From assembly GCA_022776305.1 (NCBI GenBank), contig JALFIB010000036.1, forward strand, positions 1 to 40,220: a stretch of DNA of 40,220 nt. The letters run 5' to 3'. Both the position numbers and the translations under genes were made by a program. The notes under the pieces are model-generated. The model searched no databases, was not told the DNA's origin, and saw nothing but the letters and a program-made list of their open reading frames with translations. Positions 1,545 through 24,027 of this stretch are shown in pieces. The stretch's first letter is position 1; each line of letters starts with the position of its first letter. This DNA is from Lachnospiraceae bacterium. GTDB lineage: Bacteria > Bacillota > Clostridia > Lachnospirales > Lachnospiraceae.

Positions 1545-2492
1545 TCATACCTTTTCAGAACGAGTAACTGATATAATGACAGAGACTAATACAATTAACC
1601 CATACGCCATTTTTTGAACACCATATGGAAGATTCAGGGCTACAAGGATTCCCAGAAGGATCGTAATGGTCAAGGAACCGGCAACCGTACCAAGGTAATT
1701 TCCTTTTCCTCCCAACATCGACGTTCCTCCAATCGCAACGGCTGCAATTGACTGGAATTGGTAAGTGTCACCCATAGCCAGATAACAAGATCCCACTTTT
1801 CCGGCAAGCAGGGCACCGGCAATGCCTGCCGTCACGCCACTGATCGCATAAGATAAAATAACGGTATTGTTTACTTTAATTCCAGAATACTTTGCTACTG
1901 TCGCATTATTCCCGATGGCAAAAAGCTTACGTCCATATTTCATTTTAAAAAGCATCAGCATGATGACTACTGTTAAAATAATCCAGATGATCACCAGATA
2001 AGGGATGCCAAAGAGATTGTCTTGACCAAGCTTTAAAAGGAATTCCGGTGCAGACTGTCCCGGGCTTCCCTGTGTGATCGCTACAAGTGCTCCCTGCAAA
2101 ATAATATTCATACCCAAGGTCATTACAATGGCAGGAACTCTCAAGTATGAGATACAAAATCCGTTAATCGCTCCTAATCCAAAGGTAACTACAAGCATCA
2201 GAGGAATGCCCCATACAAGATTCGCATTACTGGATCCTACCAAATTGGAAACCATATATGCCCCAATGGTCATCATCCACGCTACGGACAGGTCGATTCC
2301 TCCTGTGATGATCACAAGCGTCTGACCGACAGCTACAATACCGATTAACGCTGATTCCAAAAATACTGTCCTGATATGTGACAAGCTGGCAAAGCCAGGC
2401 ATATAAATTGAAAACCCTACAAACAGCGCGATCGCAATCACGTAGCAAAAAACAACTGACTGGTTTCTTTTGATCGTTGCTTTTATGTTCAT
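1545..2492 (-). CDS. ABC sugar-type transporter permease (RbsC family), second copy
   Basis: A 315-residue polytopic membrane protein of the ribose/galactose (BPD_transp_2) permease family. GIVAVGQTLVIITGGIDLSVAWMM near residue 55 is the family signature, and the late loop AIGGTSMLGGKGNYLGTVAG matches the EAA-like region that contacts the ATPase. Its start codon overlaps the stop of the upstream permease (TAATG), which implies coupled translation and a heteromeric permease. The substrate is unknown. Family members import pentoses, hexoses, autoinducer-2 and polyols. Confidence 0.93.
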   Translation of the reverse strand: MNIKATIKRNQSVVFCYVIAIALFVGFSIYMPGFASLSHIRTVFLESALIGIVAVGQTLVIITGGIDLSVAWMMTIGAYMVSNLVGSSNANLVWGIPLMLVVTFGLGAINGFCISYLRVPAIVMTLGMNIILQGALVAITQGSPGQSAPEFLLKLGQDNLFGIPYLVIIWIILTVVIMLMLFKMKYGRKLFAIGNNATVAKYSGIKVNNTVILSYAISGVTAGIAGALLAGKVGSCYLAMGDTYQFQSIAAVAIGGTSMLGGKGNYLGTVAGSLTITILLGILVALNLPYGVQKMAYGLIVLVSVIISVTRSEKV

Positions 2493-3460
2493 TACTCAAC
2501 CAGCTCCTTTCTTTCGTGGCGAATCTCAGAAATTGTTGAGAACAATACTGCTATGATCAGCAATGCTCCCTGAAATAACGTCGACCAGTAAGAGGATGCC
2601 CCTGCAAATACTAACAGGTCATTGATTGCTTTGAATGTTAAAACACCTACAACGGTACCATACTGCCCGCCAATACCACCTGTTAAAAGGGTTCCTCCGA
2701 TTACGGTAGCTGCAATAGCCTGGTTAAAGAAACTTTCACCGGCTGTAGGAGAACCTGTTGCTGTTACTGCAACTCGATACAAACCACAAAGGGAAGCAAA
2801 TACTCCTGAAGCTGCATAGGCAAAGTAATTTACTCTTTTTACGTTAATACCATTTAAAGAAGCTGCATGGGCATTGTTTCCTACCGCATACAAGGAAATA
2901 CCCAGATTTGTTTTCTTAAACCATGTCCACAATAAGAGACACACTATGATGATAATCAGAGCTACAGAGAATTTCCCTCCGAACCGATGCGTGAGCGCGC
3001 TTACAAATCTCCACGGGACATCCCCTCCGTCTTTCGGTAAAACAAGATATGCAATACCTCCACAGATATACCAGGTTGCAAATGTAACGATAAAGGGCTG
3101 GATCTTGAATTTCTGGATAATAAAGCCATTGAAAAATCCAACTCCTACTCCGATGGCAATGCATAATACACACACTAGAACAACCGATACCCAATTGTCT
3201 TGCATATACACTGCCGCAACACTGCTGGTTATACTGATCACACCTGCTATAGACAAGTCAATACCGCCCACAAGAAGTACAAATGTCTCACCGACCGCAG
3301 CAAATAGAAGCGTGATGGCCGATTCAGCCTTTAAACTGATCCAGCTCATAGTCAGTAAATTCGGCTGCAGGCAAAAGGTGATCGCTTCCAAAATCACAAA
3401 CAAAATAATAGATACTTTAGCGGGTGATTTCCAAAATGCTGATTCTTTGATTTTTTTCAT
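2492..3460 (-). CDS. ABC sugar-type transporter permease (RbsC family), first copy
   Basis: A permease of about 322 residues with the motif AAVGETFVLLVGGIDLSIAGV and the later ATVIGGTLLTGGIGGQYGTVVG. I set the start at the ATG at 3460 (MKKIKESAFW), because a GGGAGGA ribosome binding site lies just upstream. The longer in-frame GTG start at 3475 would put that site inside the gene. It follows the ATPase gene by 15 bases. It pairs with the next gene as the two membrane halves of one importer. Confidence 0.92.
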   Translation of the reverse strand: MKKIKESAFWKSPAKVSIILFVILEAITFCLQPNLLTMSWISLKAESAITLLFAAVGETFVLLVGGIDLSIAGVISITSSVAAVYMQDNWVSVVLVCVLCIAIGVGVGFFNGFIIQKFKIQPFIVTFATWYICGGIAYLVLPKDGGDVPWRFVSALTHRFGGKFSVALIIIIVCLLLWTWFKKTNLGISLYAVGNNAHAASLNGINVKRVNYFAYAASGVFASLCGLYRVAVTATGSPTAGESFFNQAIAATVIGGTLLTGGIGGQYGTVVGVLTFKAINDLLVFAGASSYWSTLFQGALLIIAVLFSTISEIRHERKELVE

Positions 3461-3475
3461 TGATCTTCCTCCCAC

Positions 3476-4972
3476 TTAAACAGCCTGTTCACCCACAGAT
3501 ACACGGATGATGTTTTCCCTGCTGATTAATTCTTCATCCAGCCTTCCGGTGATCCTACCATTATTCATAATAACGATACTGTTGCAAACGTTTACCAATT
3601 CTTCCGTATCGGTAGAGTAAAACAGGATTGCCTTGCCTTCTTTTGCAAATTGTTTTGTAATATTGAACATTTCCTTTTTCGTTCCCACATCCACACCTCG
3701 GGTAATATCATACATAAGGACGATATCAGGCTCTGTAGCAATTTCTTTTGCCAAAACTACCTTTTGCTGGTTACCGCCACTCAAGGTACCTGTCAGCGTC
3801 TCGGGAGATTCAGCTTTTATTGAAAGTGCTTTCATACCGCGTTCAACGACTTCCGCCTCTTTTGATTTTGATAAGAAAAGCCCGCTGCATACTTTATTCA
3901 AACACGGCAGCACAATGTTTTCACGTACACTTTGTTTCAACACAATTCCTTGAATACCACGTTCTTCAGGAATCAATGCGATTTTTTTCTCCATCGCTTT
4001 TGAGGTACTATTCAGTTTTACAACCTCTCCATTGATCTTGATTTCTCCTTTGTATGGCATTAAACCAAATAAACATTTGAATAATTCCGACTGTCCCTGT
4101 CCGGCCAATCCTCCTACTCCCAGAATCTCACCGGCTCTGATATCAAGATTAATATTGCGAAGAGAATGTCCACAGTTCACGTCTTTCATTGATACAACAA
4201 CTTTGTTTTCCTGCGTGAACCTTTCTTTCTTTGGATAGTACCCTCCGATCTCACGCCCCAGCATCAACGCCACAAGCTGGTCGGCATCTGCCTCTTCCAT
4301 TTTTAGGTCTGCTACATCAGTTCCTGCACGGTACACAATGACTCTGTTGCAAAGGGAACGGATTTCGTCAAGTCGGTGAGAAATGAAAATGATCACTTTC
4401 TGTTCTTTTGATAAACGGCGAATAATATCCATCAGCCATTTTGCATTTTTTTCTGACAGCGCCGAGGTTGCCTCGTCAAAAATAATGATATCCCCATCCC
4501 TGTTCAGCGCTTTCAAAATTTCCAGAACCTGTTTTTGTGATAAAGACAGCGTCTTTACTTTCGTTTTCGGATCCATCGGTTCCAAATCATATTTTTTAAA
4601 TAATTCAATCGTTTTCTTTTCCAGGTCTTTGTAGTTGACTCTGCGTACGGCATTTGTCTCATAAAATCCTAAGAAAAGGTTTTCTGCAATCGTAAGCTCC
4701 GGTACGAGGCTTAATTCCTGATATACGGCACATATCTTCTGTTCAATTGCATTTTTCGTGCTGGTAATATTCAATTTTTTCCCTTCAAAATAGATTTCTC
4801 CGGAATCCGGCTTATATTCGCCGCAAAGTGTCTTTATCAGCGTACTTTTTCCCGCTCCGTTTTCTCCCAAAAGGGCTACGATATCGCCTCTGTCTGCATT
4901 AAAATTAGCATTGTCCAGAGCCTTTACTCCGGGAAAGGACTTACATACGTTTCTCATTTCAAAATCAGACAT
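3476..4972 (-). CDS. ABC transporter ATPase with two nucleotide-binding domains (RbsA/MglA type)
   Basis: At 498 residues it has the usual length for the double-domain sugar ATPases. Domain 1 has a perfect Walker A (GENGAGKST near residue 36), a weak signature (LSLSQKQ) and Walker B IIIFDEATSAL. Domain 2 has a degenerate Walker A (GLAGQGQSE), a good signature (LSGGNQQKVVLAKE) and MYDITRGVDVG in place of the common EPTRGIDVG. Such asymmetry is normal for this family, although YDI for EPT is a little unusual. It energises the two downstream permeases. A ribosome binding site AGAAAGGA precedes the ATG. Confidence 0.95.
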   Translation of the reverse strand: MSDFEMRNVCKSFPGVKALDNANFNADRGDIVALLGENGAGKSTLIKTLCGEYKPDSGEIYFEGKKLNITSTKNAIEQKICAVYQELSLVPELTIAENLFLGFYETNAVRRVNYKDLEKKTIELFKKYDLEPMDPKTKVKTLSLSQKQVLEILKALNRDGDIIIFDEATSALSEKNAKWLMDIIRRLSKEQKVIIFISHRLDEIRSLCNRVIVYRAGTDVADLKMEEADADQLVALMLGREIGGYYPKKERFTQENKVVVSMKDVNCGHSLRNINLDIRAGEILGVGGLAGQGQSELFKCLFGLMPYKGEIKINGEVVKLNSTSKAMEKKIALIPEERGIQGIVLKQSVRENIVLPCLNKVCSGLFLSKSKEAEVVERGMKALSIKAESPETLTGTLSGGNQQKVVLAKEIATEPDIVLMYDITRGVDVGTKKEMFNITKQFAKEGKAILFYSTDTEELVNVCNSIVIMNNGRITGRLDEELISRENIIRVSVGEQAV

Positions 4973-14483: not shown

Positions 14484-15785
14484 TTATACTGCCATGCCAA
14501 GAAGTCTCGGGATCGTCAATGTAATTGCCGGGCAGAAGGTAACGAGGGCAAGGGCAACAAACATCGGGATCAGCCATGGCATGACGTACTTGACGACTTT
14601 ATTAAACGGCGTCTTCGTGGCACCTGCCAGCATGAACAGTGACTGTCCGTAAGGCGGAGTCATAAGACCGATCATCAGGTTCATAACTACGATGATACCA
14701 AGGTGGATCTCAGAAATACCGAGCTGCTGAACCAGCGGCTGGAAGATCGGTACCAGAAGAAGGATCGTCGGTGTAGAGTCAAGGATCATACCAAAGAACA
14801 GAAGGATCAGGTCGATCAGCAGCAGGATGATCCATTTATTTGTGGTAAGGGAAAGCATACCGTTCAGCATCAATTTTCCAAGATGCTCAAACTGGAGTAC
14901 CCATCCAAAGAGGGATGCGGATGCAACGATAGCAAGTGCTGGTACGATACCTGTAACTGTTTCGCTGACGCTGTCTTTGATTTTGCTTACCGGCATCTCT
15001 TTATATACGAAGCAAACGACTACGAGACAGTAAGCAATGGCGATACAGGAAGCCTCGGTCGGTGTGAAGATACCGCAGGAAATACCGCCTAGGATGATGA
15101 CGATCATCATCAAAGCCCAGAAGCTCTTTCTGAACAGCTGCCATCTTACTTTCCACGGCTGCTTTGCATGTACCTTATATCCTCTCTTCTTCGCAGCAAT
15201 GAATACGTAAACTGCAAGGATCAGTCCGATAACAATACCGGGGCCTACACCTGCCATAAACAGAGTACCTACAGAAACGCTTGCCGCAGCTCCGTAAATA
15301 ACCATCGGGATGGAAGGCGGAACGATCGGTCCCATGGTAGCAGATGCAGCAGTAACACCAAAGATCAGATCATCTTCGTATCCCTCATCTCGCATGGCTT
15401 TGATCTCAACCTGACCAAGTCCGCCTACGTCTGCAAGGGCAGATCCGGACATACCGGAAAAAATAAAGGATGAAAAGATATTAACGTATGCAAGACCGCC
15501 CGGGTAATGACCCAGCATAGAACGGCACCATCCGAAGATACGGTCTGTGATACCGCCCTGATTCATGATAATACCTGCCATCATGAACATGGGGATAGCC
15601 AGAAGCACGAAGTTGTTCAGGCTGCCGTACATCTTTGCCATAACTGCCATGTTATCAATGCCGCCATGAAGAAATACATAAGCAAGGCCGCTGCATAGAA
15701 GACTCAGGTAAATCGGCGCTCCGAAAAACAGAAATACTACAAATATTACAAGAAAAGCGATAAACGCTACACTAAAACCACCCAT
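14484..15785 (-). CDS. TRAP transporter large permease (DctM family)
   Basis: A 433-residue membrane protein with about 12 helices. Family marks include LLAIPMFMMAGIIMNQGGITDRI, SGSALADVGGLGQVEIKAM, ITAASATMGPIVPPSIPMVIYG-type blocks and VMNLMIGLMTPPYGQSLF near the C-terminus. It is the ion-coupled translocation subunit. Its start is 2 bases from the DctQ stop, so the two are coupled. Together with DctP and DctQ it forms a secondary importer, most often driven by sodium. Confidence 0.94.
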   Translation of the reverse strand: MGGFSVAFIAFLVIFVVFLFFGAPIYLSLLCSGLAYVFLHGGIDNMAVMAKMYGSLNNFVLLAIPMFMMAGIIMNQGGITDRIFGWCRSMLGHYPGGLAYVNIFSSFIFSGMSGSALADVGGLGQVEIKAMRDEGYEDDLIFGVTAASATMGPIVPPSIPMVIYGAAASVSVGTLFMAGVGPGIVIGLILAVYVFIAAKKRGYKVHAKQPWKVRWQLFRKSFWALMMIVIILGGISCGIFTPTEASCIAIAYCLVVVCFVYKEMPVSKIKDSVSETVTGIVPALAIVASASLFGWVLQFEHLGKLMLNGMLSLTTNKWIILLLIDLILLFFGMILDSTPTILLLVPIFQPLVQQLGISEIHLGIIVVMNLMIGLMTPPYGQSLFMLAGATKTPFNKVVKYVMPWLIPMFVALALVTFCPAITLTIPRLLGMAV

Positions 15786-15787
15786 GA

Positions 15788-16264
15788 TTACGCCTCCTTA
15801 AACTGCGGAATGTGCTCTGTGATCAGTTTCTCGATAATACGGATCACATTCAGAATCGCACTGATGGCAACGATCGATGTAGTGATACCCTGATTGATCC
15901 GCAATACAGATGTAACAGAATTACTCATATAAATGATGTACTGTACTCCGTAAAATCCGATCCATACGAAGATGGCCAGTGCTACGATATCCCAGAAGAT
16001 CGTAAACAGAACAGATACTTTCTTCGGCATCTTATCCAGTACGATCGTCACATTGATGTGCTTATCGTATTTTGTACCATAAGAAATTCCCATAAAGATG
16101 AGCCAGATGAACACTAATCTTGCTGCTTCTTCCGTCCATGTGAACGGGCTGTTGAAAACAACACGTGAGATGATTCCGGCCATAACGATAAAGAACAGGG
16201 CTACGAATAAAGCCATCATGATCCATCGTTCAAAATTATCCAAAACATACTTTAATTTCTTCAA
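15788..16264 (-). CDS. TRAP transporter small permease (DctQ family)
   Basis: A 158-residue protein with four predicted membrane helices and the DctQ signature FTWTEEAARLVFIWLIFMGISY at about residues 40-62. It partners DctM in the membrane. It is the first gene of the operon, with its promoter and operator about 100 bases upstream. Confidence 0.93.
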   Translation of the reverse strand: MKKLKYVLDNFERWIMMALFVALFFIVMAGIISRVVFNSPFTWTEEAARLVFIWLIFMGISYGTKYDKHINVTIVLDKMPKKVSVLFTIFWDIVALAIFVWIGFYGVQYIIYMSNSVTSVLRINQGITTSIVAISAILNVIRIIEKLITEHIPQFKEA

Positions 16265-16688: not shown

Positions 16689-17105
16689 CTACAGGTTTAC
16701 ATTTTTGTTTTTCTTCCCTTTTAACCTTGAAATGGCTCTCGCCAGTGAGGCTTGGGAGATCCTATACTCTTGAATGGACTGCTTCTGGCGCATCTCCTCT
16801 TTGGCGCGCTCCAGCGCTTCCTGCGCTCGCACCTCGTCAATGTCTTCCGGACGTTCTGCCGTATCCACTAACACCATCGCCCGGTTATTTGCCATTTGGG
16901 CGAATCCGCTTCCCACGATGGCTGTCTCCCAGACTCCGTCCGGTTTTTTAAACCGCATCTCGCCGGGCTGGACTGCCACAACGATATCATCATGGTGGGC
17001 CATAAATGCCCACTCACCGTCGAGTCCCGGAACGATAGCCACTTCACACATTCCATTATAAAAGACCTTGTCGCTGGCCACCACTCTCAAATGAAACTCA
17101 GCCAT
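16689..17105 (-). CDS. atpC: F1Fo ATP synthase epsilon subunit
   Basis: A 138-residue protein with the N-terminal beta sandwich (FHLRVVASDKVFYNGMCEVAIVPGLDGEWAFMAHHDD) and the C-terminal helical hairpin (AQEALERAKEEMRQ...ASLARAISRLK). It links the gamma rotor to the c-ring and can inhibit hydrolysis. It is the last gene of the operon, 26 bases after atpD. Confidence 0.96.
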   Translation of the reverse strand: MAEFHLRVVASDKVFYNGMCEVAIVPGLDGEWAFMAHHDDIVVAVQPGEMRFKKPDGVWETAIVGSGFAQMANNRAMVLVDTAERPEDIDEVRAQEALERAKEEMRQKQSIQEYRISQASLARAISRLKGKKNKNVNL

Positions 17106-17131: not shown

Positions 17132-19497
<2,366 letters not shown>

Positions 19498-19532: not shown

Positions 19533-21344
19533 CTAATTCTCAGAAGCATTCAGCCAAGAAGCTTTAAATTCTTTGGCCGCATCAAGAATCCTTCCTTTTA
19601 GCTCATCGCTAAGCGTACCGCTTACCGTCAATTCCTCCATGATGTCAGAATGGTTTTCGCGGAACCATACAAGCATGTCGTTTTGGAAGGATTTCATCTT
19701 TGGAAGTGGGACTTCCAGCATCACCTTGCCGGTAGCAGCACAAAGTGTTACCACCTGTTCTGCCATAGAAAGCGGATGGCAAAGGGGCTGTTTCAACAGC
19801 TCCATCAGACCTTTTCCGTACTGGAGAAGCTCTTTGGTCGCCGGATCCAGATCGGAACTAAACTGTGTAAACACTTCCATCTCACGGTACTGGGCAAGAT
19901 CGATACGGATACTTCCCGCAGCCTTTTTCATTGCTTTAGTCTGTGCCTCGCCTCCCACACGGGACACGGAAAGTCCTACGTTCACTGCGGGGCGCATGCC
20001 TGAGAAGAATAAGTCACTCTCAAGGAAGATCTGACCGTCCGTGATGGAGATCACGTTGGTAGGGATATAGGCTGAGAGGTCACCTGCCTGCGTCTCAATA
20101 ATGGGAAGGGCTGTGATAGATCCTCCCCCGGCTGCCTCATTCAACCGGCTGGACCGTTCCAAAAGCCTTGAATGAAGGTAGAATACATCTCCCGGATATG
20201 CCTCACGTCCCGGTGACCGTTCTAGCAAAAGGGACAGTGCGCGGTATGCAACTGCATGTTTTGAGAGATCGTCGTACACGATCAGCACATCTTTTCCCTG
20301 ATGCATGAAATATTCTGCCATGGCTGTAGCAGAATAAGGTGCTGCATACTGAAGGGGTGCCGGATCTGAAGCCGTGGCAGCCACAACAATGGTGTACTCC
20401 ATGGCATCGTATTTTTTTAATGTATTGACTAATTTTGCAATGGTAGATGACTTCTGTCCGATGGCTGCATAAATGCAGATCACATTTTTCCCTTTCTGGT
20501 TCAGGATCGTGTCGAGGGCAATGGATGTCTTTCCTGTCTGTCGGTCGCCAATGATCAGTTCACGCTGTCCCCGGCCAATGGGGAACATGGAATCAATGGC
20601 AAGGATCCCTGTTTCCAAGGGAACGCTTACCGATTTCCGCTCCACGATTCCCGGAGCCTCTGCTTCCATAGGGCGGTAATCTGCTGCCGGGACATCGCCC
20701 AGTCCGTCAATAGGCGCACCCAGTGGATCTACCACTCTTCCCAAGAAGCTTTCGCCCACCGGGATACCAGCTCTGCGATACGTTCTCGCAGCCCGTGCCC
20801 CTGCACGAATCCCCGTATCTCTTCCAAAGAGGATACATGCCACTTCATCCCGGCGGATGTCCTGCACCATGCCTTTTACTCCATTGTCAAATACCACAAT
20901 CTCGCCGTACATGGCATGGTCAATCCCTTCAATGTTTGCAATGCCGTCGCCTACCCAGTTTACGGTACCGACTTCACTTTCCTTTGCTTTTAAATCGAAA
21001 TCTTCTATTTTACTTTTTAAGATTGAAATAATGCCTTTTAAGCCCTGCGTATTTCCGGAAATATTACCCAGCTGCTCTTTCATCTGGCTGATTCTTCCGC
21101 TTGTTGACCAGTCGTATTCTTTATCGCCGATGGTCAGCACAAATCCTCCGCCAAGTGAAGGGTCTTGTATGCACTCCAGATGAATCTCATCCGAACCACA
21201 TTTCGATGCAGCAAAGCTGCGGATCTTTTCCAGCTGTTTTTCGTCGGGAGCTGTCACACAGCGCAGTACCGCCTGCACAGACGGCCTGCTCTTTACGCTG
21301 CCCTTCTGGCACATTTCTGCATTTTTTTCTACTGACTGTTCCAT
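19533..21344 (-). CDS. atpA: Fusion of delta C-terminal domain with full-length alpha subunit of F1Fo ATP synthase
   Basis: A 603-residue protein, about 100 longer than normal alpha. Residues 24-93 match the C-terminal domain of the delta subunit: [19 protein letters not shown], then [20 protein letters not shown] and [11 protein letters not shown] correspond to the family blocks (DPSLIGGF.., GD...DGS, RGRLE.L). From about residue 103 a complete alpha follows: [23 protein letters not shown]-loop GDRQTGKTS (266-274) and the arginine-finger region GLSVSRVGG. The six-helix N-terminal domain of delta is absent, and no separate atpH lies in the 25-base gap after atpF. Normal F1 has one delta and three alpha, so the fusion would give three delta C-domains. 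An internal ATG at 21083 with GGAAG 10 bases upstream could make plain alpha. Confidence 0.93.
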
Positions 21345-22167: not shown

Positions 22168-22854
22168 TTACTCCACAGCTTCTTTAATAAACAGTGATGT
22201 CAGGAACACAAAAACGTATGCCTGGATCAATCCGTCAAATATATCAAAATAAAAACTAAAGGGAAGTGGAAGGCCTACCGGAAGGATCTGTTTGATCAGT
22301 TCCATGATTACGAAGGCACCTAACACATTTCCAAATAATCGCATGCACAAAGACAATGGCCGGATAAAAATCTCCAGCACGTTGATGGGGGCAATGACTG
22401 CCACCGGTTCAGCAAAGCTTTTGAACCATTTTTTTACACCCTTTTTCCTGATTCCGGATGCTTCGATCAAAATAATGCTCATCAGTGAAAGGGCAACCGT
22501 TACGTTCAGGTCCTTTGTAGGCGGCTTCAATCCGAAAAGCCCGATCACATTGGATAAAGCAATGTAGATCAGCACGGAAACCAGATAAGGCACGTATTCT
22601 TTTGCTTCTTCCCCGATCATTCCCCTGACAAAGTTTTGCAGCCACGTAACAATAAATTCCGCTACTGCCTGACGTTTACTGATCTGGTTTACTTTTAGAT
22701 CTCTGGTCAGCCAAATCGAGAGCAACACAATAAACGCCATAATGACCCATGTGATCACCGTGGATTCAGCTACTTCCATTCCACCCAAAACCGGAATCGT
22801 AAAGACGGTTTCGCAATTCAGTTCTTCAAGCAGGTTTTCTGCCAGACGTTCCAT
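22168..22854 (-). CDS. atpB: F1Fo ATP synthase a subunit
   Basis: 228 residues, five to six membrane helices. The essential arginine lies in PLSLCMRLFGNVLGA, and the C-terminal helix has FDGLIQAYVFVFLTSLF. It forms the ion half-channels against the c-ring. It is the first gene of the operon. No atpI/atpZ lies upstream; instead a leader of about 185 bases with tandem repeats precedes it. Confidence 0.96.
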   Translation of the reverse strand: MERLAENLLEELNCETVFTIPVLGGMEVAESTVITWVIMAFIVLLSIWLTRDLKVNQISKRQAVAEFIVTWLQNFVRGMIGEEAKEYVPYLVSVLIYIALSNVIGLFGLKPPTKDLNVTVALSLMSIILIEASGIRKKGVKKWFKSFAEPVAVIAPINVLEIFIRPLSLCMRLFGNVLGAFVIMELIKQILPVGLPLPFSFYFDIFDGLIQAYVFVFLTSLFIKEAVE

Positions 22855-23127: not shown

Positions 23128-24027
23128 ATGAACATTACTTATGATTATTACCGGATTTTTTATTACGTTGCAAAGTACAAAAATATAACTCAGGCCGCAG
23201 ACGTACTGATGAGTAACCAGCCCAATGTATCCCGGGCCATCAGTAATCTGGAGCATGAGCTTGGATGCCGTCTTTTTATGCGCTCCAACCGCGGAGTCAC
23301 TCTTACTCCGGAAGGCCAGCGCCTTTTCAACCGTGTCAGCGTAGCGCACCAGCAGTTAAAAGCTGCCGAACAGGAACTCTCCGATGCCAAAAGCCTGAAA
23401 AACGGTATCGTCTCCATCGGCGTAAGTGAAACGGCCTTAAATGCCGTCCTGCTTCCCAGACTGCAAAAATTCCATACCCTTTATCCCGGTATCCGGATCC
23501 ATATTTCCAGTGTTACCACCTCTCAGGCTATAACGTCTTTGAAAGCAGGATTAGTTGATTTTGCAGTGGTCACCACTCCTATCAATATTTCACGGCCCCT
23601 CAAAGAGATCCCGCTTTTGACCATCCGGGAACAGCTTGTCGGCGGCCCACGTTTCCGATATTTGTCAAAAGCTGTCTTGAAGCTGGAAGATCTGCACAAT
23701 TATCCTCTGATCTTCCTGAATTCCCAGACCAATACGAGGGACTTTTACAATCAGTTCTTTTTTGAGCACGGTTTAACCCTGCTTCCGGAGATCGAAGCGG
23801 CTACTACAGACCAGATCCTTCCTATGATCAAACATGATCTTGGGATAGGTTTCCTCTCTGATGTCTGTGTAAAAGAAGCCATCCAAAAAGAGGAAGTCTT
23901 TGAACTCCATTTAGACTGTGAAGTACCGGGCCGGCACATCAGTCTGGTAAAAGACGTTTCCCGTACCAGCAGTATTGCAGTACGGGAACTAGAAAAACTT
24001 TTACAGATGCCCTACCATCAGGGATGA
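23128..24027 (+). CDS. LysR-family transcriptional regulator
   Basis: 299 residues. The N-terminal winged helix (1-60) has YYVAKYKNITQAADVLMSNQPNVSRAISNLEHELGCRLFMR, the classic LysR pattern. The rest is a two-lobed effector domain (about 90-290: VSIGVSETALNAVLLPRLQKF, GLVDFAVVTTPI, LGIGFLSD). LysR proteins often control the divergently transcribed neighbour, which here is the ATP synthase operon; that would be an uncommon target, so control of atp is only a suggestion. The effector is unknown. Confidence 0.93.
   Translation: MNITYDYYRIFYYVAKYKNITQAADVLMSNQPNVSRAISNLEHELGCRLFMRSNRGVTLTPEGQRLFNRVSVAHQQLKAAEQELSDAKSLKNGIVSIGVSETALNAVLLPRLQKFHTLYPGIRIHISSVTTSQAITSLKAGLVDFAVVTTPINISRPLKEIPLLTIREQLVGGPRFRYLSKAVLKLEDLHNYPLIFLNSQTNTRDFYNQFFFEHGLTLLPEIEAATTDQILPMIKHDLGIGFLSDVCVKEAIQKEEVFELHLDCEVPGRHISLVKDVSRTSSIAVRELEKLLQMPYHQG

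Follow-up and report, generated by a model that had tools for sequence, protein, structure and literature searches.

The window analysed here, a stretch of 40,220 nucleotides of DNA from a Lachnospiraceae bacterium, carries on its minus strand an F-type ATP synthase operon (22854 to 16689) in the order atpB, atpE, atpF, fused atpHA, atpG, atpD and atpC, and profile searches place the genes for a, c, b, alpha, gamma, beta and epsilon all within this one operon (Table 1). A separate delta gene is absent from the operon. What it holds of delta forms the beginning of the alpha protein: the match to the delta (OSCP) family, which passes the curated cut-off with an E value of 8.4e-11 for the whole fused protein, or 3.6e-12 when only residues 1-103 are searched, takes in the C-terminal half of the 172-position profile, and profile positions 1-97, the N-terminal six-helix domain, find no match in the fused protein. 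The remainder is a complete alpha, in which the alpha/beta family covers all three domains over residues 123-593 and the atpA model TIGR00962 runs from residue 103 to residue 596 at 736.9 bits against a cut-off of 484.45. Between the end of the atpF frame (21370) and the start of the fusion (21344) there are only 25 bases, so the delta N-domain cannot fit there. The initial annotation had read the gene in this way, as a delta C-domain followed by a complete alpha, with the N-domain missing and a non-covalent joint replaced by a covalent link, and in our judgement it was right on each of these points.

An AlphaFold2 model built on 23 aligned sequences predicts a strand-helix-strand-strand-strand-helix order for residues 23-93 (pLDDT ~80), low confidence for residues 92-122, and the alpha fold thereafter. 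Ahead of the C-domain, codons 2-11 of the fused gene share 22 of 30 nucleotides with codons 2-11 of a fused gene of the same genus that retains the whole of delta (L098), whereas the second-best codon-frame stretch within the L098 delta part shares 14 of 30; judging by this match, the first 11 codons are a leftover of helix 1 of the delta N-domain. Fold searches with the predicted models of both proteins were uninformative on the delta part, as alpha chains filled the lists, and 9jc1, the engineered enzyme discussed below, was not among the best 50 entries listed for either model. As for the neighbourhood of the operon, genes for a TRAP transporter (DctM, DctQ) follow downstream on the same strand, and a gene for a LysR-type regulator lies divergently upstream of atpB; a stretch of the LysR region, at 71.5% identity, adjoins the fused operon of another genome of the genus (G325) too.

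Table 1. Features of the window, with the complete atpH genes found elsewhere in the host genome
Feature	Location	Strand	Evidence
Fused atpHA: delta C-terminal domain and complete alpha, 603 aa	19533..21344	-	Pfam, TIGR00962, alignment to 9jc1
Remnant of delta N-domain helix 1 (putative), codons 1-11 of the fused gene	21312..21344	-	Codon match to L098
Delta (OSCP) C-terminal domain, residues 18-92	21069..21293	-	PF00213 positions 98-172; pLDDT ~80
Linker joining the delta C-domain to alpha, residues 93-104	21033..21068	-	Ungapped against engineered 9jc1 linker; model
Alpha subunit proper, residues 105-603	19536..21032	-	TIGR00962; PF02874, PF00006, PF00306
atpF, subunit b, 163 aa	21370..21861	-	PF00430, E 7.3e-19
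atpE, subunit c, 74 aa	21907..22131	-	TIGR01260, 58.6 bits (cut-off 43.95)
atpB, subunit a	22168..22854	-	NF004486, 327.8 bits (cut-off 272)
atpG, subunit gamma	18532..19497	-	PF00231, E 1.1e-95
atpD, subunit beta	17132..18535	-	TIGR01039, 830.4 bits (cut-off 462.85)
atpC, subunit epsilon	16689..17105	-	PF02823 and PF00401
TRAP transporter genes (DctM, DctQ)	14484-16264	-	
LysR-type regulator	23128-24027		
Complete atpH, ordinary operon L105	C185:7794-8303		PF00213, profile 1-170 of 172
Complete atpH, ordinary operon L106	C1:11952-12464		PF00213, profile 1-171 of 172

Distribution and forms of the fusion

The fusion recurs in related genomes. With the delta part as query, a match, fused or unfused, is found in 114 of 299 family genomes. 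A 52-row alignment (A1) of the delta C-domain, linker and alpha start, applied at a threshold of 1e-25 to 248 family genomes (the host genome and others with a completeness of 95% or more), matches 63, and in 53 of these, host included, the matched frame is unbroken, although one of the 53 (G089) has a short frame of 270. The remaining 10 have a stop within the frame; one of them (G007) is a true fusion, its stop lying upstream of its own start. In the window's genus, 11 of 47 genomes carry the fusion, 8 with whole delta and 3 with the C-domain only (host, G301, G325). Among 398 genomes sampled from the phylum, at least 15 outside the family have the fusion in an unbroken frame, and the 83-126 residues that these carry ahead of alpha are too short for a whole delta. 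Named records are also among the fused forms: Clostridium fessum SNUG30386, Oribacterium sp. oral taxon 078 F0262, Caproiciproducens galactitolivorans YR-4 and Parablautia sp. Marseille-Q6255 have the whole-delta fusion, and Candidatus Choladousia intestinipullorum has the C-domain alone.

We examined 72 fused family loci (71 fetched, plus the window), of which 43 have the C-domain only, 28 have whole delta and one (L072) has a b-delta-alpha chain. All 72 keep the order c, fused alpha, gamma, beta, epsilon, none has a separate delta, 71 have a separate b, and an a-subunit is recognisable in 65. By sequence, then, the family presents a series that runs from free delta, through whole delta fused to alpha, to the C-domain alone fused to alpha. 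For example, the fused protein of L098 matches PF00213 over profile positions 8-172, N-domain included, and its model (from the named record L150) predicts six helices, then the C-domain, then alpha. The delta and alpha genes of unfused sister operons often overlap by four bases, and a small indel at this overlap could fuse them.

Several operons depart from the common plan in other ways. In L072 (positions 2356-4689; genome G068), a single frame of 778 residues joins b, the delta C-domain and alpha, with Pfam matches to ATP-synt_B, OSCP and the alpha domains; the operon is without a separate atpF, and the first 281 residues of the chain find one match in the G068 genome. In 19 C-domain-only operons (L060, L066, L076-L082, L084-L092 and L107), c has an N-terminal stretch that looks by eye like a signal peptide; in L084, the sole one of the 19 tested, Pfam places the c domain at residues 44-107 of 111. 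The a-subunit of these same 19 operons is weakly matched or unmatched. An unfused sister operon, L141, has two consecutive atpE-like open frames (~1412-2081).

Origin of the fusion and loss of the N-domain

How often did the fusion arise? We built a tree of alpha from 125 rows, 95 of them fused and 30 free, leaving out rows fetched twice (L147-L155, L167, L170, L177, L184, L185, L187), rows of odd or unclear reading (L157, L158, L161, L183), rows cut by a contig end (L138, L169, L171, L186) and near copies (L160, L162, L180, L174-L176, L179). Of the fused rows, 80, mostly from the family, form one clade (SH-aLRT 97) within the unfused sister operons; the 15 others are 14 rows from outside the family and L083. 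One genome from outside the family (G643) falls in the family-type fused clade. Four changes between the fused and free states are needed on this tree. On a 67-row subset, the hypothesis that all fused rows share one origin is rejected (p-AU 8e-44), and the 10 outside rows of that subset are compatible with one clade (p-AU 0.63), so that delta-alpha fusions have at least two origins. In other words, the Lachnospiraceae-type fused alphas are a clade of their own, and fused alphas overall have no single common origin.

The N-domain was lost more than once after fusion. Counting within the 80-row clade, with only loss allowed and L072 scored as C-domain-only, we obtain 18 losses when the tree is kept fully resolved; collapsing branches with support below 80, 90 and 95 lowers this to 13, 10 and 6. 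The whole-delta fusion L083, which a weak fork places off the main fused clade, was excluded here. In a tree of alpha, beta, gamma and a from 21 operons, the window pairs with L103 (100/98), and L102, which has the C-domain only, pairs with whole-delta L098 (100/96), so that two losses fall within the window's genus. By these trees the N-domain was lost repeatedly, between 6 and 18 times, once the fusion was in place.

Translation starts and selection

Is the C-domain carried by every alpha chain or by only some of them? Each of the 30 unfused genes has, close to the beginning of alpha, a start codon whose Shine-Dalgarno energy is -6 or lower (mean -11.9). In the fusions, by contrast, the best site at the alpha start is at background: it averages -3.25 in whole-delta fusions (n = 33) against -3.19 in control windows within alpha, and -3.90 in C-domain fusions (n = 61) against -4.00. 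The window likewise has no internal alpha start above background, its best Shine-Dalgarno energy being -3.5. If no alpha start rises above background, alpha would be made only as the fusion, and each F1 should, as a rule, carry three delta C-domains. The initial annotation was right to raise the stoichiometry puzzle of three alpha-borne C-domains in one enzyme. There are exceptions with a good internal start, for example L113 (-11.0) and L117 (-8.1), nine codons ahead of the alpha core; L048 and others have a usable internal start as well, and the triple fusion L072, seen in a single genome, has an ATG with a fair Shine-Dalgarno site inside the alpha start. As a general explanation, an internal start is ruled out by the background-level signals across the 33 and 61 fusions.

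Comparison of six pairs of loci shows that the C-domain with its linker is under purifying selection, weaker than that on alpha. In the four pairs with computable dS, dN/dS of the C-domain and linker is 0.055-0.28 (for window-L103 and L100-L101 it is uncomputable, the synonymous sites being saturated, and dS is high in the other pairs); for alpha it is 0.028-0.065 in five of the six pairs. In the pair of the window and L102, the values are 0.28 for the C-domain and 0.045 for alpha.

Relation to known enzymes

The initial annotation knew of no delta-alpha fusion, and on this point it does not hold. Ueno et al. 2025 describe a Bacillus PS3 FoF1 in which the delta C-domain was fused to alpha and the N-domain removed (PDB 9jc1), and name a natural delta-alpha fusion without the N-domain in Acidaminococcus fermentans, together with UniProt entries G4Q3K6 and A0A1I2C5T3, predicting a multi-stalk enzyme there (PMC12229609). 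The rationale given is that the delta N-domain, sitting on the three-fold axis, restricts the enzyme to one stalk; the paper also states that every ATP synthase so far has one a-subunit per complex (PMC12229609). The engineered fusion forms up to three b2 stalks with an a-subunit on each; cryo-EM particles with 0, 1, 2 and 3 stalks make up 15, 51, 26 and 8%, respectively, and the H+/ATP ratio is 5.8 versus 3.0 (PMC12229609).

The window shares with this delta-DeltaN-alpha FoF1 the absence of the delta N-domain and the placement of the C-domain on a complete alpha, and residues 35-215 of the window's protein align with residues 16-196 of 9jc1 over 181 residues without a gap, junction included. 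There are differences too: the engineered enzyme was designed, and its stalks were counted on particles, whereas those of the window's enzyme are predicted from genes; and the engineered enzyme also had the epsilon C-domain removed, whereas epsilon in the window keeps it (PF00401). The Acidaminococcus fermentans protein, G4Q3K6 and A0A1I2C5T3 have the same build as the window, as far as the authors' own description goes. The architecture thus has precedents, in a designed enzyme and in a single natural case mentioned in print, and the fusion reported here is not a first. Among the papers we found, only PMC12229609 describes a natural delta-alpha fusion, and we did not find in this literature that the fusion extends across Lachnospiraceae-type operons, that it has intermediates with whole delta, that the N-domain was lost repeatedly, or that a b-delta-alpha chain exists.

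A fusion of delta to b, the arrangement seen in other enzymes, is ruled out for the window: its atpF product has ATP-synt_B as the sole Pfam family above cut-off. In mycobacteria, b carries the whole of delta, one per enzyme. That b-delta protein (PRK13428; PDB 7jg5) likewise joins delta to a neighbouring subunit, whereas the window has the C-domain only, and has it on alpha. N-ATPases, in turn, are described in PMC11738941 as having delta absent or fused with b, in the gene order beta-epsilon-X-X-a-c-(b delta)-alpha-gamma. The likeness is that delta is reduced and its C-terminal half is borne by another subunit, alpha in the window and b in N-ATPases, and the b model of N-ATPases, TIGR03321, does match residues 20-91 of the window's fusion weakly with its positions 174-244 (E 0.011). 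The window's operon is not an N-ATPase operon: alpha, beta, a and c score 604.6, 601.5, 120.4 and 43.5, all below the curated alt_F1F0 cut-offs of 750.5, 752, 302.1 and 130.85, and the gene order here is a-c-b-(delta C)alpha-gamma-beta-epsilon.

A candidate multi-stalk enzyme and its alternatives

What kind of enzyme would such an operon encode? The features that the sequences show are the fusion itself, the loss of the N-domain and its recurrence after fusion in this clade, the lack of an alpha start above background, the purifying selection on the C-domain, and genomes with no other F-type ATPase found. The best explanation, and by a small measure a probable one, is a natural multi-stalk enzyme with more than one b2 stalk and a-subunit per F1 and a higher number of ions per ATP. 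Delta would survive in it only as a b-binding C-domain on the alpha N-terminus of an F-type ATP synthase that is otherwise complete; each F1 would present three identical b-binding heads around the three-fold axis, and the N-domain, whose place on the axis would normally limit the enzyme to one peripheral stalk, would be gone. Depending on supply, one F1 could then accept two or three b2 stalks that each bring an a-subunit, and with more ions per ATP the enzyme might work at low ion-motive force. We prefer this reading because the architecture of the window is that of the engineered enzyme, from whose like build the number of stalks and the raised ion/ATP ratio are inferred; that work also offers an answer to the stoichiometry puzzle, in that removal of the N-domain leaves every C-domain able to bind a separate b2 stalk and a-subunit (PMC12229609). 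Against this reading count the one-stalk and stalkless particles of the engineered enzyme, the single fused genes with a good internal start, the faster evolution of the C-domain relative to alpha, and the 28 of the 72 fused loci that retain the whole N-domain, so that fusion alone does not demand its loss. That the lineage evolved multi-stalk synthases stepwise, by whole-delta fusion first and repeated deletion of the N-domain afterwards, going from one stalk to up to three with an a-subunit on each, is a proposal that we regard as evenly balanced between right and wrong.

The strongest rival, which we consider possible though doubtful, is that three C-domains accompany a single b2 stalk, the covalent tie to alpha having replaced the grip of the N-domain and left it to decay. 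Repeated loss of the N-domain after fusion fits this reading and the multi-stalk one equally, as a tether would make the N-domain redundant, and about half of the engineered particles bear one stalk (PMC12229609). Predicted translation signals, taken as a proxy for a:b:gamma in 21 free, 32 whole-delta and 28 C-domain operons (excluding L072, the outside and ordinary rows, and 20 operons of the signal-peptide type or allied to it), are also in keeping with a single stalk: with kinship ignored, a is unchanged, b weaker and gamma weaker in the C-domain fusions, mixed signs that give no clean indication of more a and b per gamma. What speaks against a single stalk is that one gene product supplies all three chains, so that nothing singles out one C-domain, and that the engineered enzyme, to which the window aligns ungapped across the junction, binds extra stalks that retain their a-subunits.

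Could the fused enzyme instead borrow a free delta from another operon, or be no more than a vestige alongside the genuine ATP synthases? The host genome, a draft of 303 contigs that is 89% complete and 6.4% contaminated, does have two further OSCP matches, each a complete atpH in an ordinary atp operon of its own (L105 and L106), which makes three F-type operons in one draft genome. Where the contigs show their genes, the two ordinary operons have the same gene order as the fused one, but they keep a separate whole delta, which the window's fused operon does not. Their atpA genes are 76.6% identical across 1433 nt, and one of the two operons may be contamination. Another fused genome of the genus, G325, likewise has two ordinary operons; both match L106 (~85%, ~2.5 kb) rather than one each matching L105 and L106. 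The c subunits of L105 and L106 have a Gln..Glu-Thr-Thr pattern, which we take to be the Na+ ligand set of Na+-type enzymes, and the window's c is without that Gln. As the c subunits differ, the delta genes of the two ordinary operons would serve other enzymes, and the fused enzyme is probably distinct from theirs and of the H+ type. The claim of no free delta gene in the initial annotation thus stands for the fused operon and fails for the genome; an intact atpH elsewhere, which that annotation would have taken as evidence against it, does exist twice over, yet both copies appear to belong to other enzymes.

A wider search covered 51 fused genomes, namely 50 of the 53 (without the host, G089 and G790) and G007, some of them called fused from frame length alone. 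A separate whole delta is present in 31, and in G075 delta is in two pieces on two contigs, as borrowing or a vestigial copy would allow. In 19 of the 51, by contrast, there is one OSCP match, the fusion itself (E 0.01 or better), and one gamma, with one-contig G791 and C. fessum (G222) both among them; the fusion is the only F-type ATPase found in these 19, in a search whose OSCP model missed the fused C-domain of one of the 51 (G184) and which a diverged delta could escape. Together with dN/dS far below 1 wherever computable and a gene order kept in every fused locus, this makes a borrowed delta or a vestigial copy improbable.

Even less probable, and in our view very unlikely, is mixed translation, in which an internal start yields free alpha, and one fused and two plain alpha chains restore the classical stoichiometry of one delta. 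The usable internal starts in L072 and a few genes (L113, L117, L048) would permit it there, but alpha-start signals at background in both forms of the fusion and in the window, against strong ones in every unfused gene, argue against it. An assembly or gene-calling artefact, to which a fragmented and partly contaminated host draft might have pointed, is almost certainly not the explanation, since the same build is found across many assemblies, one-contig G791 included, and the whole-delta form occurs in records without a metagenome label (Clostridium fessum, Oribacterium sp. oral taxon 078, Parablautia sp. Marseille-Q6255).

Implications

In the accepted view, as PMC12229609 presents it, the c-ring sets the ion/ATP ratio, and the engineered enzyme broke the limit of one a-subunit by removal of the N-domain and a tie of the C-domain to alpha. 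The present survey yields material for testing whether nature has done likewise: both forms of the fusion within one genus, unfused sister operons, and genomes in which only the fused enzyme was found. If the multi-stalk reading is true, the b-delta-alpha chain of L072 would tie one b directly to every alpha, and the number of stalks, hence of ions per ATP, would be an evolvable trait. If the natural enzymes are like the engineered one, a large group of anaerobes would make ATP at a gear ratio beyond the accepted range.
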